The notes under the pieces are model-generated. The model saw only the letters and a program-made list of their open reading frames with translations, ran no database searches and was not told the DNA's origin. From positions 2,391,278-2,455,277 of the forward strand of contig NZ_LT629791.1 in assembly GCF_900105925.1 (NCBI RefSeq): a stretch of DNA of 64,000 nt, given 5' to 3'. Position numbers and translations under genes: made by a program. Source of the DNA: Jiangella alkaliphila (GTDB lineage Bacteria; Actinomycetota; Actinomycetes; Jiangellales; Jiangellaceae). Shown here one piece after another: positions 9,870 to 60,020 of this stretch. The first letter of the stretch is position 1, and each line of letters opens with the position of its first letter.

Positions 9870-13284
<3,415 letters not shown>

Positions 13285-19773: not shown

Positions 19774-19779
19774 AATGGC

Positions 19780-19808
19780 TTGTGAACGCATTCACAAGCC
19801 CCTAGGCT
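19780..19808 (+). promoter_or_regulatory. ndh promoter: -35 TTGTGA, 17-bp spacer, -10 TAGGCT
   Basis: TTGTGA (19780-19785) and TAGGCT (19803-19808) are 17 bases apart. The expected start point falls at or next to the A of the ATG at 19815, so the transcript is probably leaderless. The -35 box lies inside the Rex operator, so a bound repressor would block RNA polymerase. Confidence 0.7.
19781..19796. promoter_or_regulatory. Rex operator (ROP site) upstream of ndh
   Basis: TGTGAACGCATTCACA matches the Streptomyces coelicolor Rex consensus TGTGAAC-NNN-TTCACA at every defined position, and the dyad extends to 10-bp arms (19777-19786 and 19791-19800). Rex is released from DNA by NADH. Placed over the -35 box of an NADH dehydrogenase gene, it would switch the gene on when the NADH/NAD+ ratio rises. 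Confidence 0.88.
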
Positions 19809-50221: not shown

Positions 50222-51358
50222 CTAGTCCTCGGCCAGGACGTCGCGCAGCGCCTCCAGGTAGCGCATCCCGCGGACGGTGTCGGGCAGCAGCGCCGACCCC
50301 TCGGTCCACTCGTTCCACGCGTTGACGGTGACGATCGAGTGCGGCGGCCGGTGCCTGCGGAGGAAGTCGAGGGCGTCGCGCAGTCCTTGGGCGAACTGCT
50401 CGGGCTCGGGGTCCGAGGTCGGGATCCACGGGTACGCGCCCTCGACGAACGGCACGTCCTGGTCGGTGCGGGGGCTGGAGTCCCAGCCGACCGTGACGTT
50501 CGGGTAGAAGGGGAGGTCGAGGTAGCCGGTGATGCGCTCGAAGGACTCGAAGGCGAGCCGGCGGGTGTGGTCCCAGTCGGCGGCCGGGAAGCCGATGGCG
50601 TCGGCCGGCGCGTGGTGGATCCACACGTAGGCGGTCGCCGACCGGAAGCCCAGGGTGGGCAGCGCCGTCAGCGACTGCTCCCAGTCGGTCGACCCCGGCA
50701 GCTCGTTGACCGAGCTGACGATGCCATCCAGGTGGACGCCCTCGAACCCGCGCGACCGCACGTGCGCGTCGAACCACTCCAGCGCGTCCATCGTGGCGTC
50801 GACGCCGCCGAGCCCGGCGACCAGCGAGCCGATCTCGTAGACCGAGAACCACGGGCGGCCGTCGACGGTCAGGTAATTCGGCTCGGTGAAGTAGCGGTCG
50901 GTGATGTGGCGGGCCATCGCCTCGAACGCCGGCCGGTCGATGGCGCCGTCCTTGAGGACGGTGGCGGTCCCGTCGGCCGAGCGCGACGGGAAGATGTCGG
51001 TGAGCGCGTGGTTGGCCCACATGAGCGCGAACGTCATGCTCGAGCGCGACTCCGCCTTCAGGAACCCCTCGTCGAGCGCGCGCTGCAGGAACGGCCCGTC
51101 GTCGTACCAGTAGTAGTCGAACAGGAACCCGTCGACGCCGTGCGAGACGGCCAGGTCGATCTGCGTCTGGAACACCTGCGGGTCCGCCTCGTCGAAGTAG
51201 CCGAGGGCGGGCTCGCGCGGCTGACGGTGGCCGGGGAACCGCGGCGTGGCGGCCTTGAGCAGGTCCCACTCGGTCCAGCCGGTGCCGAAGTACGCGCTGG
51301 TGCGCTCGTCGACGTGCCAGTTGGGGAAGTAGTAGCAGAGGATCTGGGGTCGGTTCAT
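50222..51358 (-). CDS. GH99-like / WbsX-type glycoside hydrolase
   Basis: This 378-residue cytoplasmic protein (no signal) starts PQILCYYFPNWHVDERTSAYFGTGWTEWDLLKAATPRFPGHRQPREPALGYFDE, a hallmark of the WbsX/GH99-like domain. GVDGFLFDYYWYDDGPFLQRALDEGFLKA and IVTVNAWNEWTEGSALLPD with the typical NAWNEW..G..LLPD end are also present. GH99 enzymes cleave alpha-mannosides; WbsX-like proteins are less well defined. It is the last gene of the locus C importer operon, 44 bases after the ATPase, so it probably processes the imported sugar. Confidence 0.87.
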   Translation of the reverse strand: MNRPQILCYYFPNWHVDERTSAYFGTGWTEWDLLKAATPRFPGHRQPREPALGYFDEADPQVFQTQIDLAVSHGVDGFLFDYYWYDDGPFLQRALDEGFLKAESRSSMTFALMWANHALTDIFPSRSADGTATVLKDGAIDRPAFEAMARHITDRYFTEPNYLTVDGRPWFSVYEIGSLVAGLGGVDATMDALEWFDAHVRSRGFEGVHLDGIVSSVNELPGSTDWEQSLTALPTLGFRSATAYVWIHHAPADAIGFPAADWDHTRRLAFESFERITGYLDLPFYPNVTVGWDSSPRTDQDVPFVEGAYPWIPTSDPEPEQFAQGLRDALDFLRRHRPPHSIVTVNAWNEWTEGSALLPDTVRGMRYLEALRDVLAED

Positions 51359-51402: not shown

Positions 51403-52134
51403 TCACTCGCCGTAGACGTTGAGGCGGACGATCTCGTCCACCGTGGTGTCCTCCTTCGCGCGGATGCCGGCGACGCGGCCCAGGCGCAGGGCGAGGAAGC
51501 GGTCGGTGACGTCCCACACCTGCTCGAGGTTGTGGCTGATGACGATCACCGCCTTGCCCGCGTCGCGCAGCCGGGCGATCACGTCGATGACGCGGCGCGA
51601 CTCCTGCACGCCGAGGGCCGCGGTCGGCTCGTCGAGGATGACCAGCTGGGCGCCCTGCAGGAGGACGCGGCCGATGGCGACCGACTGCCGCTGGCCGCCG
51701 GACAGCATGCTCACCGGCACCTTCACGCTCGGGAGCCGGAAGGTGAACTCGTGCAGGATCCGTTCCGCCTCGGCGATCATCGCCCGGTGGTCGACGAACG
51801 GGCCGCGGCGCAGCTCGCGGCCGAGGAACAGGTTGGCCGCGACGCTGCGGGTGTCGACCAGCGAGAGGTCCTGGTACACGGTGGCGATGCCCGCGTCGAT
51901 CGCGTCCTTCGGCCCGGCCCACTGCTGGACCTCGCCGCCGACCACGATCTCGCCGCCGGGGTCCGGCGCGTAGACGCCGGCGAGCAGCTTGATCAGCGTG
52001 GACTTGCCCGCGCCGTTGTCGCCGACGATCGACAGCACCTCGCCGGCCGAGACCTCCAGGTCGACGCCGCGCACCGCCTGGACGTGGCCGAACGTCTTGC
52101 GCAGCTCGCGCGCCTGCAGCAGCGGGGCGCTCAT
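51403..52134 (-). CDS. Ribose-type sugar ABC transporter ATP-binding protein
   Basis: This 243-residue single ABC domain has Walker A GDNGAGKST (about 37-45), the signature LSGGQRQSVAIGR, Walker B LVILDEPTAALGV and the H-loop ISHN. DNGAGKSTLIKLLAG and EPTAALGVQES are typical of carbohydrate importers of the CUT2 class. CUT2 ATPases often have two fused ABC domains; this one has one and would work as a homodimer. Its start overlaps the permease stop by 4 bases. Confidence 0.93.
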   Translation of the reverse strand: MSAPLLQARELRKTFGHVQAVRGVDLEVSAGEVLSIVGDNGAGKSTLIKLLAGVYAPDPGGEIVVGGEVQQWAGPKDAIDAGIATVYQDLSLVDTRSVAANLFLGRELRRGPFVDHRAMIAEAERILHEFTFRLPSVKVPVSMLSGGQRQSVAIGRVLLQGAQLVILDEPTAALGVQESRRVIDVIARLRDAGKAVIVISHNLEQVWDVTDRFLALRLGRVAGIRAKEDTTVDEIVRLNVYGE

Positions 52135-53123
52135 CGGGTCATCCGCTTCGCCGCGATCGCGCCGAGCACGACCGCCAGCAGGAAGACCGCGCCGCGCACC
52201 GTCGCCTGCACGTAGGTGTCGACGGACAGCAGCGTGAGCCCGTTGTTGAGGACTCCGATCAGCAGCACGCCGGCGAGCGTGCGTTCGATCCGCCCGGCGC
52301 CGCCGCTCAACCCGACGCCGCCGAGCAGCACCGCCGTCAGCACGTCGAACTCGGTCGTCGCGCCGAAGAACGGCCCGCCCGACGCGGCGCGGCCCGCGGA
52401 GAGCGCGCCGCACAGCCCGGCCGCGCCGGCGGTGAGCAGGAAGACGCCGAAGTAGATCCGCTTGGCCGCGACGCCATTGCGGATCGCCGCGATGACGTTG
52501 CCGCCGACGGCGTACACGTGCCAGCCCGTCCGTGTGTACTGGAGCAGGACGAAGAGCACCGCGAACACGACCACGAGCAGGATCAGCGGGGTCGGGATGC
52601 CCAGCGGCCGCGAGTTCACGAACCGCTGCAGGCTGAGGTCGGTGATCGCGACCGCTTGGCCGTCGGTGAGGATCTGCGCGACGCCGCGGACCGTGAGCGC
52701 CACCGCGATCGTGACGATGATGCTGTTGATGCCGACCTGGATCACCAGTGCGCTGTTGAGCAGGCCGACCACGAGCGCGGCGCCGACCGCCAGCAGCACC
52801 GCGACCAGCGCGGGCAGCTGCAGGTCCTGGATCGCCATCGCCGTGATCACCGCGCTCAGCGCCAGGCACGCGCCGATGCTGAGGTCCAGCTGCCCGGCGA
52901 TCAGCGCGACCGTCATCGCCGCCGCCATGATCCCGTTCAGCGACACGGCGAGGCCGATGTTGAGCAGGTTCGCCTGCGTCCAGAAGTACGGCGACGCGAC
53001 CGAGAAGTACACGATCAGCGCCACCAGCGCGGCGTAGAGGCCGTAGTCGAGCGCGACGTCGGCGGGACGGCGCCGGACCCGCGGCTCCTCGAGCGTGACG
53101 ACCGGCTGCGTCGTCACGTTCAC
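52131..53123 (-). CDS. Ribose-type sugar ABC transporter permease
   Basis: This 330-residue protein of the RbsC/XylH family has about 8-10 helices. The signature region is NLLNIGLAVSLNGIMAAAMTVALIAGQLDLSIGACLALSAVI, with GQLDLSIG the CUT2 permease hallmark, and TRTGWHVYAVGGNVIAAIRNGVAAKRI the cytoplasmic loop before the last helices. GTG 53123 overlaps the binding-protein stop (GTGA); GTG 53117 is also possible. It forms the channel of the locus C importer. Confidence 0.93.
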   Translation of the reverse strand: MNVTTQPVVTLEEPRVRRRPADVALDYGLYAALVALIVYFSVASPYFWTQANLLNIGLAVSLNGIMAAAMTVALIAGQLDLSIGACLALSAVITAMAIQDLQLPALVAVLLAVGAALVVGLLNSALVIQVGINSIIVTIAVALTVRGVAQILTDGQAVAITDLSLQRFVNSRPLGIPTPLILLVVVFAVLFVLLQYTRTGWHVYAVGGNVIAAIRNGVAAKRIYFGVFLLTAGAAGLCGALSAGRAASGGPFFGATTEFDVLTAVLLGGVGLSGGAGRIERTLAGVLLIGVLNNGLTLLSVDTYVQATVRGAVFLLAVVLGAIAAKRMTR

Positions 53124-54202
53124 CGGTCGTCGTCCGGGTAGAACTCGTCGACGTTCTCGGCCGTCAGCACCCGGGTGACCGCGTACTCGTCGAAGCTCTC
53201 GCCCAGGTGCGTGGCGATGGCGGCCTCGACCCAGTTCCACCCCGCGGAGTAGGGCTGGAAGTCGATGGCGCCCAGCAGGACGCCCGCGTTGTCGGGGTCG
53301 CGCAGGGCGGTCCGGCCGGCCGAGTCGCCGCCGCTCGCGACCGCGAGGATGTCGCCGGTGCGGTCGGCGGACTTGGCCGCGTTGAGCGCGCCGACGACCG
53401 GGGCGTCGCCGTAGGACACGACGATGGTGGCGGCGTCGGGGTGCGCGGTCAGGAAGTCGGTGAAGGTGTCGGCGGCGTTGTTCGTCGGGTCGGTGCCGAC
53501 GGGCTCCAGCCGGACCTGGCGGTCCTCGGGGATGTCCCACGCGGCCGCGGCGTCGGCGAAGGACTGGCGCACGCGCGCGTCGCACGGCGGGCAGTTCGCC
53601 GCCGAGATCCCGGCGATGTACAGCTCCTTGCCGGCCCACTCGGTGGCCAGCTTCGCGTCGACGGCTTCTGCGAGTGTGGTGATGGCCAGCGAGCCGACCT
53701 CGGCGTCGGAGACGCCGAAGTCCGCCGCACCATCGACGGCGCCGTCGATCACGACGGCATCCGTTCCGTTCGCCGCGGCGGCGGCCACGACGGCGGCGTT
53801 CATGGCCCCGCCGCCGCTGCCGATCACCGCGGGCTGCTTCACCGACATCTGCTCGTACGCTGACATCGCGGTCTCGTACTTGAACGCGAGGTCGACCTCG
53901 TCGAGGGCGACGCCGTAGAACTCGGCGGCGTCGTGCATGCCGGTCGACCACTCGGCGAAGAACGGGTAGCTCAGGCCCGGGTTCGCGAAACCGAGCTGCA
54001 GATCGGGCAGGTCCTTCGGCACCGCGAACAGCGGGACGACCGCGCGCGTGCCGGTCGCCTCCGCGACCTCCTCGGCGGACCAGGTGCCGCCCTCGGACTC
54101 CGACTGCTGCGCCGCGGGCGCGTCGTCGCCGGCACAGCCGGCGCTCAGGAGCACGCTCGCCGCGACCACCGCGCCGAGCGCGACGTGGGATCTCATCGCC
54201 AT
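53120..54202 (-). CDS. Ribose-type sugar ABC transporter solute-binding lipoprotein
   Basis: This 360-residue protein has a lipoprotein signal (LGAVVAASVLLSAGCAGDD, lipobox SAGC at about 21-24) and a periplasmic-binding-protein type 1 fold. QLGFANPGLSYPFFAEWSTGMHDAAEFYGV opens it, VVIDGAVDGAADF follows, and ILAVASGGDSAGRTALRD is the second lobe. A CPPC motif (AANCPPCDARV, about 200) is unusual for the family and could form a disulfide. ATG 54202 has GGGAGGA 5 bases upstream. It is the first gene of the locus C operon under the GTGAACCATTTCAC operator. Confidence 0.92.
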   Translation of the reverse strand: MAMRSHVALGAVVAASVLLSAGCAGDDAPAAQQSESEGGTWSAEEVAEATGTRAVVPLFAVPKDLPDLQLGFANPGLSYPFFAEWSTGMHDAAEFYGVALDEVDLAFKYETAMSAYEQMSVKQPAVIGSGGGAMNAAVVAAAAANGTDAVVIDGAVDGAADFGVSDAEVGSLAITTLAEAVDAKLATEWAGKELYIAGISAANCPPCDARVRQSFADAAAAWDIPEDRQVRLEPVGTDPTNNAADTFTDFLTAHPDAATIVVSYGDAPVVGALNAAKSADRTGDILAVASGGDSAGRTALRDPDNAGVLLGAIDFQPYSAGWNWVEAAIATHLGESFDEYAVTRVLTAENVDEFYPDDDR

Positions 54203-54225: not shown

Positions 54226-54253
54226 CCGCTCGGTGAACCATTTCACCGAGCGG
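54226..54253. promoter_or_regulatory. LacI operator of the locus C importer
   Basis: Perfect 12-bp arms CCGCTCGGTGAA (54226-54237) and TTCACCGAGCGG (54242-54253) surround CCAT. The core GTGAACCATTTCAC (54233-54246) is repeated exactly at 58119-58132 in front of the secreted glycosidase. It lies at the predicted transcription start of the importer operon. Confidence 0.8.
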
Positions 54254-54255
54254 TT

Positions 54256-54283
54256 ACTCTAGCGTCGCCCCAGGAGTTGTCAA
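54256..54283 (-). promoter_or_regulatory. Importer promoter: -35 TTGACA, 16-bp spacer, -10 TAGAGT
   Basis: On the minus strand TTGACA (54283-54278) and TAGAGT (54261-54256) are separated by 16 bases. The start point is expected near 54249, inside the operator, giving direct repression by steric block. Confidence 0.7.
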
Positions 54284-54373
54284 GAGCGGAATCGCCTGGT
54301 CGGATGGCCGCACGTCGCCGTCCGAGCACTATGGTGTGGTGATCCGCAGACCCAGCGACGACCGAGGACCCAC

Positions 54374-55387
54374 GTGACCACTCGTCCCACCATCCGAGAC
54401 GTCGCGGAGGCCGCCGCCGTCTCGATCGGGACGGTGTCCAACTACCTCAACGACGTCAAGCCGATCGCCCCGGCCACCCGCGAGCGCATCGAGCAGGCCA
54501 TCGCCGACCTCGAGTTCGTGCCGAACCGGGCCGTCAAGGTGATGCGCGGCGCCCGCGCACCCGCCATCGGCTACGTCGTGTCCGACTCGCCGGACCCGTT
54601 CTTCGTCGAGGTCGGACGGGGCATCGAGGACGTCGCGCGCGAGCACGGGCTGGTCGTCGTCTCGTGCAACACCGAGGGCTCGCGCGAGTACGAGCGCAGC
54701 TACATCACCGCGCTCGCCGAGATGCGCGTCGCCGGCGCGATCGTCATGCCGTCGTTCGAGCGGCGCGACCTGCCGTTCCGGGCGCTGCGCGCCTCCGGGG
54801 CCGGGGTGGTCGTGCTGCGCGACTGGGACGACGACACGTGCTCGATCACCTTCGACGACGACGAGGGCGGCCGGCTCGCCGCCGCGCACCTGATCGAGCT
54901 CGGCCACCGCGACCTCGTCTTCCTCGGCGGCCCCGGCGGCGAGCACCAGATCGAGCACCGCTTCGCCGGCGCCAAGGCGGCGCTGCGCGACGCGGGGCTC
55001 GATCCGGAGTCGCTGCGGCGCATCGACGCGGCGAGCGCGACCGTCCGCGACCGCGTCGCGCTGGCCGACCAGGTCCTCGCCCTCGACCCGCGGCCGACGG
55101 CGGCCTTCTGTGCGAGCGACAGCCTGGCGCTGGCGATGATGAACGGGCTGCTGCGCCAGGGCGTCCAGGTGCCCGGCGACATCTCCATCGTCGGGTTCAA
55201 CGACGTCGTCGCCGCTCAGCTGGCGGTCGTGCCGCTCACCACGATCGCCGTGCCCCAGTACGCGCTGGGCGAGTCCGCCGCGCGGCTCCTGCTGGACGAG
55301 CTGCAGCCCGAGCACCGCCACGAGCAGATCGTGCTCGGGCCGCAGCTGGTCGTCAGGGAGTCGACAGGTACACCTCGACCTCGCTGA
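54374..55387 (+). CDS. LacI-family transcriptional repressor of locus C
   Basis: This 337-residue regulator has the helix-turn-helix PTIRDVAEAAAVSIGTVSNYLNDVKPIAPATRERI (about 5-39), the hinge VPNRAVKVMRG, and the sensor domain with IGYVVSDSPDPFFVEVGRGIEDVA, AFCASDSLALAMMNGL and GDISIVGFNDVVAAQLAVVPLTTI. GTG start with GAGGA upstream. It lies between the importer operon and the secreted glycosidase gene, which share one operator core. Its 3' end overlaps the convergent glycosidase gene by 35 bases. Confidence 0.93.
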   Translation: MTTRPTIRDVAEAAAVSIGTVSNYLNDVKPIAPATRERIEQAIADLEFVPNRAVKVMRGARAPAIGYVVSDSPDPFFVEVGRGIEDVAREHGLVVVSCNTEGSREYERSYITALAEMRVAGAIVMPSFERRDLPFRALRASGAGVVVLRDWDDDTCSITFDDDEGGRLAAAHLIELGHRDLVFLGGPGGEHQIEHRFAGAKAALRDAGLDPESLRRIDAASATVRDRVALADQVLALDPRPTAAFCASDSLALAMMNGLLRQGVQVPGDISIVGFNDVVAAQLAVVPLTTIAVPQYALGESAARLLLDELQPEHRHEQIVLGPQLVVRESTGTPRPR

Positions 55388-58096
55388 GGCGGGCCACCTT
55401 CTCGCCGGGCGGCGGACCGTCCTGCTGGACGTTGCCCTCCGTCGTCCAGACCCGTAGCCGCGACGCCGTGACGGTGCGAAGGTGTGCGTCAGGTGGTCGG
55501 TGGTGTTGCCGGTCACCGTCACGAGATCGACCCACCCCGCGCCGTCCCAGTACTGCAGCGTGTAGCCCTTCTGCTCGTAGTCCTTCTTCGTGTACACCTC
55601 GACGCGGTCGAACGTGCGGTCGCGCCCGAAGTCCAGCTCGAGCCACGCGGGGAAGACGACCGCCGCCCAGCCGGACCACGTCTCGGTGCTGTTGTTGCCG
55701 TCGTTCACGGCGGCCGGGGAGTAGTTCGTGCTCTCGACCGACGACGCCGTGGCGACAGCCGTCAGCGCGAGGTTCTCGCCCAGGTCGGCGACGGTGTCGA
55801 TGGTGTAGAAGCGGGTCCGCAGGCCGTCCTGGGAGGTGACCGACAGCAGCATGCCGTCCTCGATGCCGCCGCTGGTCACCTCGGTCGTCCCGTCCGCGAG
55901 CCACACCTTCGTCGACGCGCCGACCGTCGGCGTCAGGGCGGCGAGCAACGCGGCCCGGTCGGTGCCGTTCGTCACGCCGCCGATCGTCCGCTCGCGGTCG
56001 CCGACGAGGTAGGCGGTGGACCGGACGGTCGCGGCCGTGCCGACCTTCGCGTACGCCGTCACCGTCACGTCCGACCCGTTGACCAGCGCCACCCTCGACG
56101 GCCCGCTGAGCGTCAGCCGTAGATGGCGGGCCGTCCCGGAGACCCGCTCGGTCTGTTCCGCGCCGAACACCGGCGCACCGGTGTGGTCCTGCAGCGTGGT
56201 CCAGGTCTGCCCGTCGACGGAGCCCTCCAGCAGGTACTGGTGGCGCAGCAGGCCGGCCGGGAAGTCGAGCCCGACCCGGGCGAGCTCGTATGGCTCGCCG
56301 AGGTCGACCTGAAGGGCGCGCGGCCGCCGCTCGCCCAGCCGGGTGACGACCGCGCCGTCGGAGACCACCGTCAGGCCCGCTGACGCGGTCGCGCCGGCCG
56401 CGGGAAGGGCCGTCGGCTGGAGCTTGCGCACCAGCAGCAGCCAGTCCGCGCCGGTCGGCTTCTCCGGCACCGTCCACCGGCCGGCGACGGGCGTCAGCGA
56501 GTCGTCGATGAGCTGGTACTCGCCGGTGCGCGGGTCGTACCACTGCGCCTCGTACGCCGCGTCGGGCAGCACGAGCGCGCCCCGCGAGGAGGTGTCCGCG
56601 AGGAAGTACACGGTCACCACGTTGGCGGCGTCGTCGGCCCGCAGGGTCGGGTCGGTCAGCTCGGCGCTGTACTCCCCGTCCCAGACGGCCCAGCCGTCCG
56701 GCCGGTAGCTCATCGTCGACAGCGGGAGCGAGCGGTAGAAGTCGGCGAGGTGGGTCATCTGGTCCCCGCCGGGGAAGTCGATCGCGTCGAACCAGTTCCG
56801 GTGCCCGTAGCCGTAGTCGTCGGCGGTGTCCTGGTCGTCCCAGGCCGCGTTCCAGATGCCGTGCGCGCCATACCCGTAGCCGAACCCGCCGGCCTGGATC
56901 GAGCGGTAGGCCGACTGCCGGACGACGGTGTCGGTCGCGAACCCGTCGAGGATCTGCTCGTAGTTCGCCTCCGACTCGAAGAAGGGGGCGCCGTACTGCT
57001 CCGCGTAGTAGTCGTAGTCGCCGGTCGGGACGACCTTGCGGTGGCCGCCCTGGAGCATCTCGAAGTCGAACCAGCCCTCGCCCTCGTAGTACTGCGGCAG
57101 GCCGAAGGTCTGCTTCTCCGTCAGCGCCGTGGTGTGCGCCGTCTGCGGGTGGTCGTAGTCGTCGTACTGGTGGATCGTCCGCGCGACGTCGCGCCACCCG
57201 TCGATGCGCGCCTCGCGGGTGCCGACGTCGTAGCCGGCGCCCTCGCCGGCGGTCGTCCAGACCATGGGGTAGGCGCCGTAGCGCGCGACGACGTACTCGG
57301 CCAGCCGCTGCTCGCCCTCGACGAAGCCGTCGATGTTCGAGTGGAACCCGACGCCGAACGCGTTGACCAGGCCGGCGTCGGCGACGTAGGCCATCTTGCG
57401 GTCCAGCTGATCGCGGAAGTAGGCCGGGTCGATCTCCACGCCCTGCCGGCCGTCGCGCCAGTAGCTCGACTCCGGGCCGAAGACGACGCTCTGGTAGACG
57501 GTGAACCGCTGCTCGGCGCGCCGGTCGACCATGCTCCGGAACTGCGAGTCGACGCCGGGCTTGTTCGAGGTGTCCCAGGACTCCTTGCGGTCGAAGAACC
57601 AGTGGGTGTCGCCGAGCCAGAAGAACGGCGTGCCGTCGGCGTACGCGAGCTGGCGTCCGCCGTCGCCCGCGGTCAGGAAGCCGCGCTGGTAGATCTCCTG
57701 GTCGCCGGTGTAGGGGACGGCCTGGATCGTGCCGGTGCGCCGCAGGCCGCTGTTGTCAGGGTCGCTGCTGGCGATCTGGTACGTCCACGTGCCGACCGTG
57801 GGCGGTGCGAACCGCACCTTCCAGGTGTCGCCGCCGTCCCAGAAGCCCGGCCGTCTGATCACCTCGCCGCCGGGTCCCGCGAACGTCGCCATGACCTCGA
57901 CGTCGAGGAACGGGTTCGGGTAGGACTGCGTGCTCTGCAGCGCGAGCTCGGTCGTGATCCAACGCTCGGCGGTCTGGGCCGGTCCGGTGCGGTCGGGTGG
58001 CGCGGCGTCCGCCGGGGCGTACGCGAGCACGACCGCCGCGATCGCCAGGGCGGCGGACAGCAGCGCGGCGAGGGGCTTGCCTGGTCTGAGCATCAT
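55353..58096 (-). pseudogene. Secreted DUF5060/DUF4038 glycoside hydrolase with a C-terminal frameshift
   Basis: A Sec signal (LAALLSAALAIAAVVLAYAPADA) is followed by a DUF5060-type beta domain (about 40-130, WITTELALQSTQSYPNPFLDVEVMATF), an apiosidase-like DUF4038 barrel (about 150-490, FFWLGDTHWFFDRKESWDTS; FFESEANYE), a collagen-binding-like tail domain and discoidin-type modules. After VTVTGNTTDHLTHTFA the frame shifts near 55472. The expected end VTASRLRVWTTEGNV...KVARLSEVEVYLSTP continues in the next frame to a stop at 55353, consistent with loss of one C. Repaired length is about 914 residues. Unrepaired, translation would run about 1.1 kb further, antisense through lacI. The catalytic barrel is intact either way. 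Confidence 0.82.
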
Positions 58097-58118
58097 CGAT
58101 CTCCCTGGTCACGAGGAA

Positions 58119-58132
58119 GTGAACCATTTCAC
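58119..58132. promoter_or_regulatory. LacI operator of the secreted locus C glycosidase
   Basis: GTGAACCATTTCAC is identical to the core of the importer operator at 54233-54246. It lies between the -10 box and the start codon of the DUF4038 gene, 23 bases upstream of the ATG at 58096. Confidence 0.78.
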
Positions 58133-58145
58133 CAAGCTGTCCGGG

Positions 58146-58174
58146 AGATTAGACCGCGCCTCGGGGCCCGTCAA
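58146..58174 (-). promoter_or_regulatory. Glycosidase promoter: -35 TTGACG, 17-bp spacer, -10 TAATCT
   Basis: On the minus strand TTGACG (58174-58169) and TAATCT (58151-58146) are 17 bases apart. The start point is expected near 58139, just upstream of the operator core, the same arrangement as at the importer promoter. Confidence 0.65.
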
Positions 58175-58207
58175 TACCCGAACCGGGGGGCAGATCTCAG
58201 AGTTCTC

Positions 58208-58227
58208 TGATAAAGCCGCGTTTATCA
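58208..58227. promoter_or_regulatory. Dyad TGATAAA-N6-TTTATCA upstream of the CapA-M15 gene
   Basis: Perfect 7-bp arms TGATAAA (58208-58214) and TTTATCA (58221-58227) flank GCCGCG, 9 bases before the ATG at 58236. It is an AT-rich island in GC-rich DNA, so a protein-binding site or the -10 region of a leaderless promoter is likely. Confidence 0.45.
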
Positions 58228-58235
58228 TCGTGATC

Positions 58236-60020
58236 ATGCCGAGACGTCGCCGGCTCGTTCTCGTGGCGGGCCTCGCCGCGGCCGCGGTGATCGTGGGCGC
58301 GCCGCTGCCCGAGCCGCCGGCCGGATCGGTTCCGACGACCGGCATGCCCGAACCCGCACCCGCCGACCCGGCCCCGGACGCCACCGCGACGACGCCGCCC
58401 GCGGCCGCCGGCGACGAGACGGTGCGGCTGGCCTTCGCCGGCGACATCCACTTCGAGGGCGACTACCGCGACGTGCCGGCCGATCCCGCCAGCACCCTCG
58501 GCCCGATGTCGGACGTGCTGAGCGCGGCCGACCTGGCCATCGTCAACCTCGAGTCGGCGCTGGCCGTCGGCGGCATGCCGGCCGCCAAGGAGCTCGAGGA
58601 CCCGGCCAACCGGTTCTGGTTCCGCACCGGCCCGGCCGCTCTCGACGTCCTGGCCCGGTCCGGCGTCGACGTCGTGTCGGTCGCCAACAACCACGGCGCC
58701 GACTTCGGCCCGGCCGGCTTCATCGAGACCATCGCGGCCGTCGAGACCGGCAGCGTGGCCGTCGTCGGCGCCGGCCGGAACGAGCGGCAGGCGTACGCGC
58801 CCTACCGGGTCAGCGTCAAGGGCACCGACATCGCCGTCCATGCCGCCGACGCCTCGCGGGCCGAGAGCGCCGACCCCATCTGGGCGGCCGCGCCGGGGAC
58901 CGGGCCGGGCCTCGCGTCCGCGCGCGGTCCGGGGGCCGACGCGCTCGCCGCCGCCGTCCGCGTGTCGGCGCAGACGGACGACCTGGTCGTCGTCTACCTG
59001 CACTGGGGCGAAGAACAGAACGCCTGCCCGATCGAGAGCCAGCAGGTTCTGGCCGGGCAGCTGGCCGAGGCCGGCGCCGACATCGTCGTCGGGACCCACG
59101 CGCACATCCCGCTCGGTGCCGGGCTGCAGGGCTCCACCTACGTCGCCTACGGTCTCGGCAACTTCTACTGGTACCACGGCCGCGAGTCCGAGACCGGGGT
59201 GCTCCAGCTCGACGTCAGCGGCGGCGTCGTCGTGGGCGACGAGTGGCTGCCGGCGCGGTTCGTCCCCGAGGGCGGCGGCGCGATCCCGCTGACCGGCAGC
59301 GTCCGCACCGAGGCGGTGCGGGAGTGGCATGACCTGCGCGGCTGCACGAGCCTCGCCCCCGGGCCTGGCCCCGACCCGGCGGCGGCCGGTGTCGCCCCCG
59401 GCCCGCCGCCCGATCCGGTCGCCCCCGAGCTGCCCGCGTTCGCCTCCTCCATCGAGCCGATCGGCCCGTCGGTGAGCGCCGGCATGGTGAGCCACACCGA
59501 GGGGACGTGCCCCGTCCCGCTCGCGGACCTGCGCCACCTCGTCGTCACCCATGTCGGGTTCGACGGCCGCGCCCGCCGCGGCGAGCTGGTGGTGCACGCC
59601 GACGTCGCCGCCGATGTCGTCGACGTGTTCGCCACGCTCTACTCCGCCCGGTTCCCGATCGAGCGGATGCTGCTGGTCGACGAGTACGGCGGCGACGACA
59701 ACGCGTCCATGGCGGCCAACAACACCTCCGGCTACAACTGCCGCCGCGTCGCCGGCCAGTCGACGTGGTCCAACCACGCCTACGGACGCGCCATCGACAT
59801 CAACCCCGTGCAGAACCCGTACGTCCTCGGCGACGTGGTGCTGCCGCCGGCCGGGGCGCCGTTCCTGGACGTCGATCGCTCGTCCGACGCCCCGGCGCTG
59901 CCCGGCGTCATCCGCGACGGCGACGTCGTGCGCCAGGCGTTCGAGCGGATCGGCTGGGAGTGGGGCGGCCTGTTCTCCGACCCCGACTACCAGCACTTCA
60001 GCGCGCCCGACGCGCCATAG
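58236..60020 (+). CDS. Exported CapA-family / M15 peptidase fusion protein
   Basis: This 594-residue two-domain protein has a short signal or anchor (RRRRLVLVAGLAAAAVIVGA) and a Pro/Ala linker. A CapA/PGA_cap metallophosphatase-like domain follows (about 62-360: LAFAGDIHFEGDYRD, LAIVNLESAL, VSVANNHGADFG, YLHWGEEQ, VVGTHAHIPLG). A Pro-rich linker (about 372-400) leads to an M15C-type D-Ala-D-Ala carboxypeptidase-like domain (about 420-594). The zinc ligands are visible: His514 and Asp521 in SNHAYGRAIDINP and His587 in YQHFS. CapA proteins are linked to poly-gamma-glutamate and M15C enzymes cleave wall peptides, so a role in the cell envelope is likely. The start could be slightly upstream. Confidence 0.85.
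   Translation: MPRRRRLVLVAGLAAAAVIVGAPLPEPPAGSVPTTGMPEPAPADPAPDATATTPPAAAGDETVRLAFAGDIHFEGDYRDVPADPASTLGPMSDVLSAADLAIVNLESALAVGGMPAAKELEDPANRFWFRTGPAALDVLARSGVDVVSVANNHGADFGPAGFIETIAAVETGSVAVVGAGRNERQAYAPYRVSVKGTDIAVHAADASRAESADPIWAAAPGTGPGLASARGPGADALAAAVRVSAQTDDLVVVYLHWGEEQNACPIESQQVLAGQLAEAGADIVVGTHAHIPLGAGLQGSTYVAYGLGNFYWYHGRESETGVLQLDVSGGVVVGDEWLPARFVPEGGGAIPLTGSVRTEAVREWHDLRGCTSLAPGPGPDPAAAGVAPGPPPDPVAPELPAFASSIEPIGPSVSAGMVSHTEGTCPVPLADLRHLVVTHVGFDGRARRGELVVHADVAADVVDVFATLYSARFPIERMLLVDEYGGDDNASMAANNTSGYNCRRVAGQSTWSNHAYGRAIDINPVQNPYVLGDVVLPPAGAPFLDVDRSSDAPALPGVIRDGDVVRQAFERIGWEWGGLFSDPDYQHFSAPDAP

Follow-up and report, generated by a model that had tools for sequence, protein, structure and literature searches.

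One LacI-family regulator and two identical palindromes predict a local glycan regulon in Jiangella alkaliphila

We analysed a 64,000-nucleotide stretch of the Jiangella alkaliphila genome (assembly GCF_900105925.1, contig NZ_LT629791.1, positions 2,391,278 to 2,455,277; hereafter the window), in which a gene for a LacI-family regulator, P0001, is flanked by two minus-strand units, an ATP-binding cassette (ABC) importer operon and a gene for a DUF4038-type enzyme. We found the same 14-nt palindrome, GTGAACCATTTCAC, in the leaders of both units, and across the entire 7.7 Mb genome a pattern search returned exactly these two copies, both at the locus. From the sequence we propose, with a probability of roughly 0.85, that P0001 is a local repressor of both units, that the two palindromes are its operators, and that a glycan-derived inducer releases it from genes for linked enzyme and import steps. 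The sites, their positions, the gene content and the conservation of the sites together with the regulator are read directly from the DNA. The features of the locus are the following.

50222–51358, minus strand: WbsX-domain protein (PF14307) with a GH99-like predicted fold and no evident signal peptide
51403–52134, minus strand: single-domain ABC ATPase
52131–53123, minus strand: permease (BPD_transp_2)
53120–54202, minus strand: sugar-binding protein P0003 (Peripla_BP_4) with a lipobox-like LSAGC
54233–54246, no strand: predicted operator 1, GTGAACCATTTCAC, in the leader of the importer operon
54256–54283, minus strand: promoter 1, TTGACA-16-TAGAGT, from the promoter scan
54374–55387, plus strand: LacI-family regulator P0001, 337 aa, hinge NRAVKVMRGAR (PF00356, PF13377)
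55353–58096, minus strand: DUF5060-DUF4038/apiosidase-like-discoidin enzyme, predicted to be secreted from its signal-peptide-like start
58119–58132, no strand: predicted operator 2, GTGAACCATTTCAC again, in the leader of the DUF4038 gene
58146–58174, minus strand: candidate promoter 2, TTGACG-17-TAATCT, weaker, from the sequence

The importer operon runs in the order binding protein, permease, ATPase and WbsX protein, the last starting at the ATG at 51358 or at a GTG further upstream. The lacI gene is divergent from this operon and convergent with the DUF4038 gene. P0001 matches PF00356 at 55.2 bits (cut-off 27) and PF13377 at 132.2 bits, and has both the LacI helix-turn-helix and the binding-protein-like core.

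The preliminary description of this DNA had proposed an identical 14-mer at two promoters and a genome scan as a check, and the repeat is borne out; the scan shows in addition that exact copies are restricted to this locus. When up to two mismatches are allowed, there are 11 matches to GTGAACCATTTCAC in the genome, and the nine besides the exact copies all carry two mismatches; the reversed pattern, searched in the same genome at the same tolerance, gave 4. At 71% GC, about 0.006 exact copies are expected by chance. The same count, with just 2 exact among the 11 matches, led us to reject a wide regulon built on exact sites. Operator 1 lies 9 nt downstream of TAGAGT and 30 nt upstream of the binding-protein ATG (54202), and operator 2 lies 13 nt downstream of TAATCT and 22 nt upstream of the DUF4038 ATG (58096). 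The sites are thus just downstream of −10 boxes, as first described, and the description of these boxes as strong is true of the first promoter only, because the second box agrees with TATAAT at 3 of 6 positions and received no call in the promoter scan, which promoter 1 alone passed. Operator 1 is the core of a perfect palindrome with 12-bp arms, CCGCTCGGTGAA-ATGG-TTCACCGAGCGG; beyond about 15 nt the flanks of the two copies diverge. The shared GTGAA-N4-TTCAC, present in two leaders and footprinted in relatives, is an even palindrome of the LacI type. Upstream of lacI, between 54203 and 54374, no other stretch comes closer to GTGAAAYRGTTCAC than 6 mismatches in 14, so that the earlier statement that no copy precedes lacI holds at this locus. 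Elsewhere in the genome there are eight further GTGAA-N4-TTCAC sites, of which a simple gene caller places four within genes (L002, L003, L008, L010) and four in intergenic DNA, namely before an alpha-L-rhamnosidase gene (L009) and an NDH-2-like gene of the window (L004), and beside a reductase-like gene (L001) and a small cysteine-rich gene (L007). A separate inverted repeat, GATAAAGCCGCGTTTATC, occupies 58190–58240, directly before a PGA_cap/peptidase gene starting at 58236.

That one LacI joins the importer operon and the DUF4038 enzyme in a regulon, as had been suggested, appears well supported by footprints in five loci that were gathered by LacI protein sequence and not by motif. A genome scan identified the LacI of Cryobacterium shii as a 70% identical orthologue of P0001 (the other five matches were 30–41% identical), and among 378 genomes of the C. 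shii family we found four further relatives, 50–53% identical at E 1e-80. P0001 and the five form one clade in the tree (support 100/100). The relatives' loci contain 15 TGAA-N4-TTCA sites against 0.45 expected, present in all five loci and with 3 of 15 in coding sequence, and 8 GTGAA-N4-TTCAC sites against 0.06 expected, in four of the five (none in L100) and with one coding. Together with the two sites here, the six clade loci thus hold 17 TGAA-N4-TTCA sites, of which 14 lie before likely starts and were kept (2 here, 3 each in C. shii and L101, 2 each in L103, L102 and L100); the three coding sites, L102:15925 in a binding-protein gene and L100:6261 and L100:9478 in called genes, were dropped. 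Six of those kept (L081:4188, L101:10565, L103:10502, L100:301 and both L102 sites) are leader sites only with a later start, as they lie inside the longest open reading frame.

Two other genomes have the exact 14-mer before a binding-protein gene, C. shii at L081:4188 and the Microbacteriaceae genome of L101 at position 10565. The C. shii locus has a WbsX gene 65% identical to that of the window, and GTGAAACAGTTCAC stands there twice, once upstream of a gene for a beta-helix protein and once upstream of rhaI, the L-rhamnose isomerase gene. All three exact copies of GTGAAAYRGTTCAC in the C. shii genome are at this locus; three places elsewhere differ by one mismatch, and the reversed control gave no match. 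At L101 a near-copy lies directly before lacI, with WbsX and DUF4038 genes further along, and another site precedes a gene that matches the C. shii beta-helix protein over 103 residues (38%). Tandem operators 34 bp apart (10468 and 10502), an arrangement not seen in the window, precede WbsX-DUF4038 at L103. Two sites lie between GH28-like and ADP-ribosylglycohydrolase-like genes at L102, and at L100 two copies, with one arm weaker, precede a GH30-like gene. Across the six clade loci, WbsX genes recur in four and DUF4038 genes in three.

We infer binding, repression, the effector, the glycan and the enzyme activities from this arrangement. P0001 bound just downstream of a −10 box would block initiation or early elongation, and it would be released by a product of the target glycan acting as inducer. 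The secreted DUF4038 enzyme would then cut the glycan outside the cell, the binding protein, permease and ATPase would import a fragment, the cytosolic WbsX/GH99-like protein would cut this fragment further, and released rhamnose would pass to the genome's separate rha genes.

The preliminary description had guessed at a pectic or mannose-containing glycan. The evidence now points to a rhamnose-linked and possibly pectic one, with the GH99-like fold alone speaking for mannose. Downstream of the operator-preceded rhaI of C. shii lie genes for the bifunctional rhamnulose-1-phosphate aldolase/dehydrogenase RhaEW (TIGR02632, above cut-off) and for an FGGY kinase whose best match is rhamnulokinase, below the cut-off of that model. 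LacIs just outside the clade, 41–43% identical to P0001 and from the window's family, adjoin rhaI at 11 of the 12 loci fetched, all but L057; these 12, out of 18 other matches, are our RhaR-like set, and L052 and L057 have no TGAA-N4-TTCA site. A rhaI gene is also within loci L082–L084. In the J. alkaliphila genome itself, a RhaR-like LacI gene (G000:562712-563704) and rhaI are divergently oriented around TGAATCGGTTCA, and the gene for the bifunctional enzyme comes next. Furthermore, GTGAATCGTTTCAC at L009:1501-1514 (G000:5154484) is in the leader of a gene for an alpha-L-rhamnosidase with a twin-arginine translocation (TAT) signal, downstream of a promoter-like TTGACC-17-TAAAGT, and probably serves either the RhaR-like LacI or P0001 as a target. 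On balance we lean towards L-rhamnose or a rhamnosyl oligosaccharide as inducer or cargo.

In the portion of PMC3870299 drawn on here, a LacI-type RhaR of Actinomycetales is proposed as co-regulator of rhamnose and rhamnosyl-oligosaccharide genes. With the system outlined there, ours appears to share the LacI family, the tie to rhamnose and rhamnosyl-oligosaccharide uptake and catabolism, a palindromic operator and the RhaEW route. P0001 differs in its position outside the rhaI-adjacent LacIs as a group, a comparison made with the fetched LacIs and not with the RhaR proteins and motif of PMC3870299 itself. It also differs in its importer and enzymes, its Met hinge, its CA-centred sites and the lack of a rha gene under an exact site. 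P0001 is not an orthologue of the rhaI-adjacent LacIs, as it belongs to the separate 100/100 clade and another LacI stands beside rhaI in the same genome.

The unusual detail of the switch is in the hinge and the operator centre. The hinge residue is Met in all six clade LacIs, and Leu (16) or Ile (1) in the other 17 rows. A search of 384 genomes of the class for further Met hinges, with the LacI N-terminus as query, gave 18 other stretches of LacI from 16 loci, each of them with Leu. By structure work, the residue at this hinge position inserts into the operator's central base step. Both window operators are CA-centred and lack the CG centre typical of LacI sites, and a CA/TG centre is present at all five sites belonging to P0001 or to its orthologue in C. 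shii. The 14 kept clade sites divide into CA/TG 7, CG 3, TT 2, AA 1 and AG 1 (11 of 14 without CpG), whereas all 10 sites before RhaR-like LacIs are CG-centred. The comparison of the two groups gives 2.5e-4 from 13 of the 14 sites (without L101:9369) and with shared ancestry ignored, and is a hint rather than a test; an association of the Met hinge with operators lacking a CpG centre is suggestive only. In the figures quoted from PMC4052901, 1173 of 1251 even LacI-type palindromes have a CG centre, 49 are different and 29 degenerate, and autoregulation is given as 72%. With the local sugar regulons described in those parts of PMC4052901, the present one shares its local scope and even palindrome; it differs in its CA centre and in having no site before lacI.

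For the intracellular GH99-like step suggested earlier, the candidate is the WbsX protein, with moderate support from its predicted fold. In a comparison of its predicted structure (predicted local distance difference test, pLDDT, 79.6) with known structures, ranks 1–35 of the best 50 rows are GH99-type (E 3.7e-10 to 5.3e-8), with template-modelling (TM) scores to the query of 0.48–0.58, a root-mean-square deviation of about 7–10 Å and 13–16% identity. There are five stretches with a pLDDT below 50, among them 349–355 in the region of the conserved NEWTEGS. A profile search gave no significant GH99 sequence match (best E 0.015), and Pfam gives WbsX, PF14307, whose members carry a glycosyltransferase name there. 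The invariant WbsX NEW-E motif resembles the acidic pair of GH99. Thus the top fold matches of the model liken the protein to GH99 endo-alpha-mannosidase/mannanase with moderate support, from which it differs by the modest TM scores, the lack of a significant sequence match and the lack of an evident signal peptide. A literature search on WbsX together with glycoside hydrolase found no paper. The DUF4038 enzyme matches the PF13204 catalytic-domain profile at 1.2e-52, and its profile matches solved apiosidase-like structures (8t9w, 1.1e-30; 3kzs, 8.1e-24). Judging by sequence, it shares the PF13204 domain with the apiosidase-like family as that is presented in the part of PMC4032388 used here (BT_1012; PDB 3kzs, 8t9w) and differs in its additional DUF5060 and discoidin domains; its apiosidase activity is putative. 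Its structure model (pLDDT 51.4) was not used. The gene has a frame change at about 55484, within the last discoidin domain, which is a real mutation or a sequencing error; the upstream frame would continue antisense through lacI to 54329.

Several observations weigh against the model of P0001 as repressor of a rhamnose-glycan importer and its enzymes. In the relatives' loci nothing matches the window's binding protein or permease, the ATPase finds just 25–37% matches to other ABC ATPases, and four of the five relatives carry SBP_bac_1 and BPD_transp_1 importers instead. As the importer type differs, the cargo cannot be transferred from them with certainty. The rhaI gene accompanies one of six clade members, C. 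shii, and none lies in the 17.5–19.9 kb fetched for each of the other four relatives; no rha gene of the present genome is under an exact operator. GH99 members known so far act on mannosides. Moreover, seven other WbsX loci (L044–L050) have no LacI match above 33%, so that WbsX is not tied to this regulator. Among the five window-family WbsX loci used as a control, L044 and L046–L048 lack TGAA-N4-TTCA, and L045 has two such sites, both between a distant LacI gene (33%) and the next importer-type gene; the more distant L049 carries a single site, in front of a gene for a 29% LacI that lies 3.4 kb away from the WbsX gene of that locus. The WbsX homologues of L044–L048, from five family genomes, are 47–50% identical. 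Beside that of L044 are genes for an AraC-type regulator, a 1372-aa protein without a Pfam match, and SBP_bac_1 and BPD_transp_1 proteins; by blastp the 1372-aa protein is present in all five loci and the other neighbours in several.

Other explanations of the palindromes were considered. The RhaR-like LacI of this genome, instead of or together with P0001, could control both promoters, since it is related to P0001 (43–44%) and its sites have the same TGAA-N4-TTCA geometry. We regard this as improbable, because its type of site is CG-centred in 10 of 10 cases and the window operators are CA-centred, and because RhaR-like LacIs are present in relatives without a match to the window's binding protein. 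It is very unlikely that the repeat is an RNA hairpin acting as an attenuator or stability element: the site 1 leader does fold strongly (−33.1 kcal/mol, z = −5.4), but at site 2 the leader gains no stability over its shuffled versions (z = 0.09), and a hairpin was rejected as the shared element on this ground. The common stem is just 5–6 bp, and the four central bases are also identical, which fits DNA recognition.

Control by the redox repressor Rex is less probable still. The published Rex site, TTGTGAAW4TTCACAA in the part of PMC2883068 drawn on here, includes the GTGAA-N4-TTCAC core, and the window has a Rex-like CTTGTGAACGCATTCACAAG before an NDH-2-like oxidoreductase gene (19782–19795). 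However, the outer TT/AA of Rex sites is missing at both operators, which have GG..CC (site 1) and AG..CC (site 2) and do not belong to the Rex type, and in three genomes the 14-mer occurs together with a LacI of the clade and with importer genes. The sequence at 19779–19798 itself, CTTGTGAACGCATTCACAAG, fits the published Rex operator and, with the NDH-2-like gene (Pyr_redox_2) starting at about 19815, is likely a redox-control site. That the repeat is chance or a recently copied promoter fragment, given just two copies, is the least credible explanation: the chance expectation, the diverging flanks and the recurrence of the 14-mer in other genomes all argue against it, and the footprint in the relatives' loci already contradicts it.

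P0001 as the repressor of both units remains our preferred reading. Of 393 genomes of the class, the other 392 gave no match to P0001 at E 1e-80 (at most five candidates scored per genome), and the binding protein has no other match in 22 genomes of the order (E 1e-30), in 393 of the class (E 1e-12) or in the named-genome scan. The C. shii locus adjoins a relaxase gene. The locus is probably accessory and horizontally moved, with the importer type swapped between carriers. More speculatively, it may represent a sporadic, mobile actinobacterial rhamnose-glycan system in which WbsX proteins are cytosolic GH99-fold hydrolases and a Met-hinge LacI clade, freed from CpG, is insulated from the RhaR-like LacI. 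The local regulon appears to be new and well supported, and the type of switch is already familiar apart from its one unusual regulatory detail. An unassigned gene cluster thereby becomes a concrete prediction, in which one repressor acts at two promoters, the inducer is probably linked to rhamnose, and functions are proposed for the importer and the enzymes. The Met-hinge clade, standing beside its Leu/CpG RhaR-like relatives, would offer a natural test of the tolerance of LacI proteins for operators without CpG.

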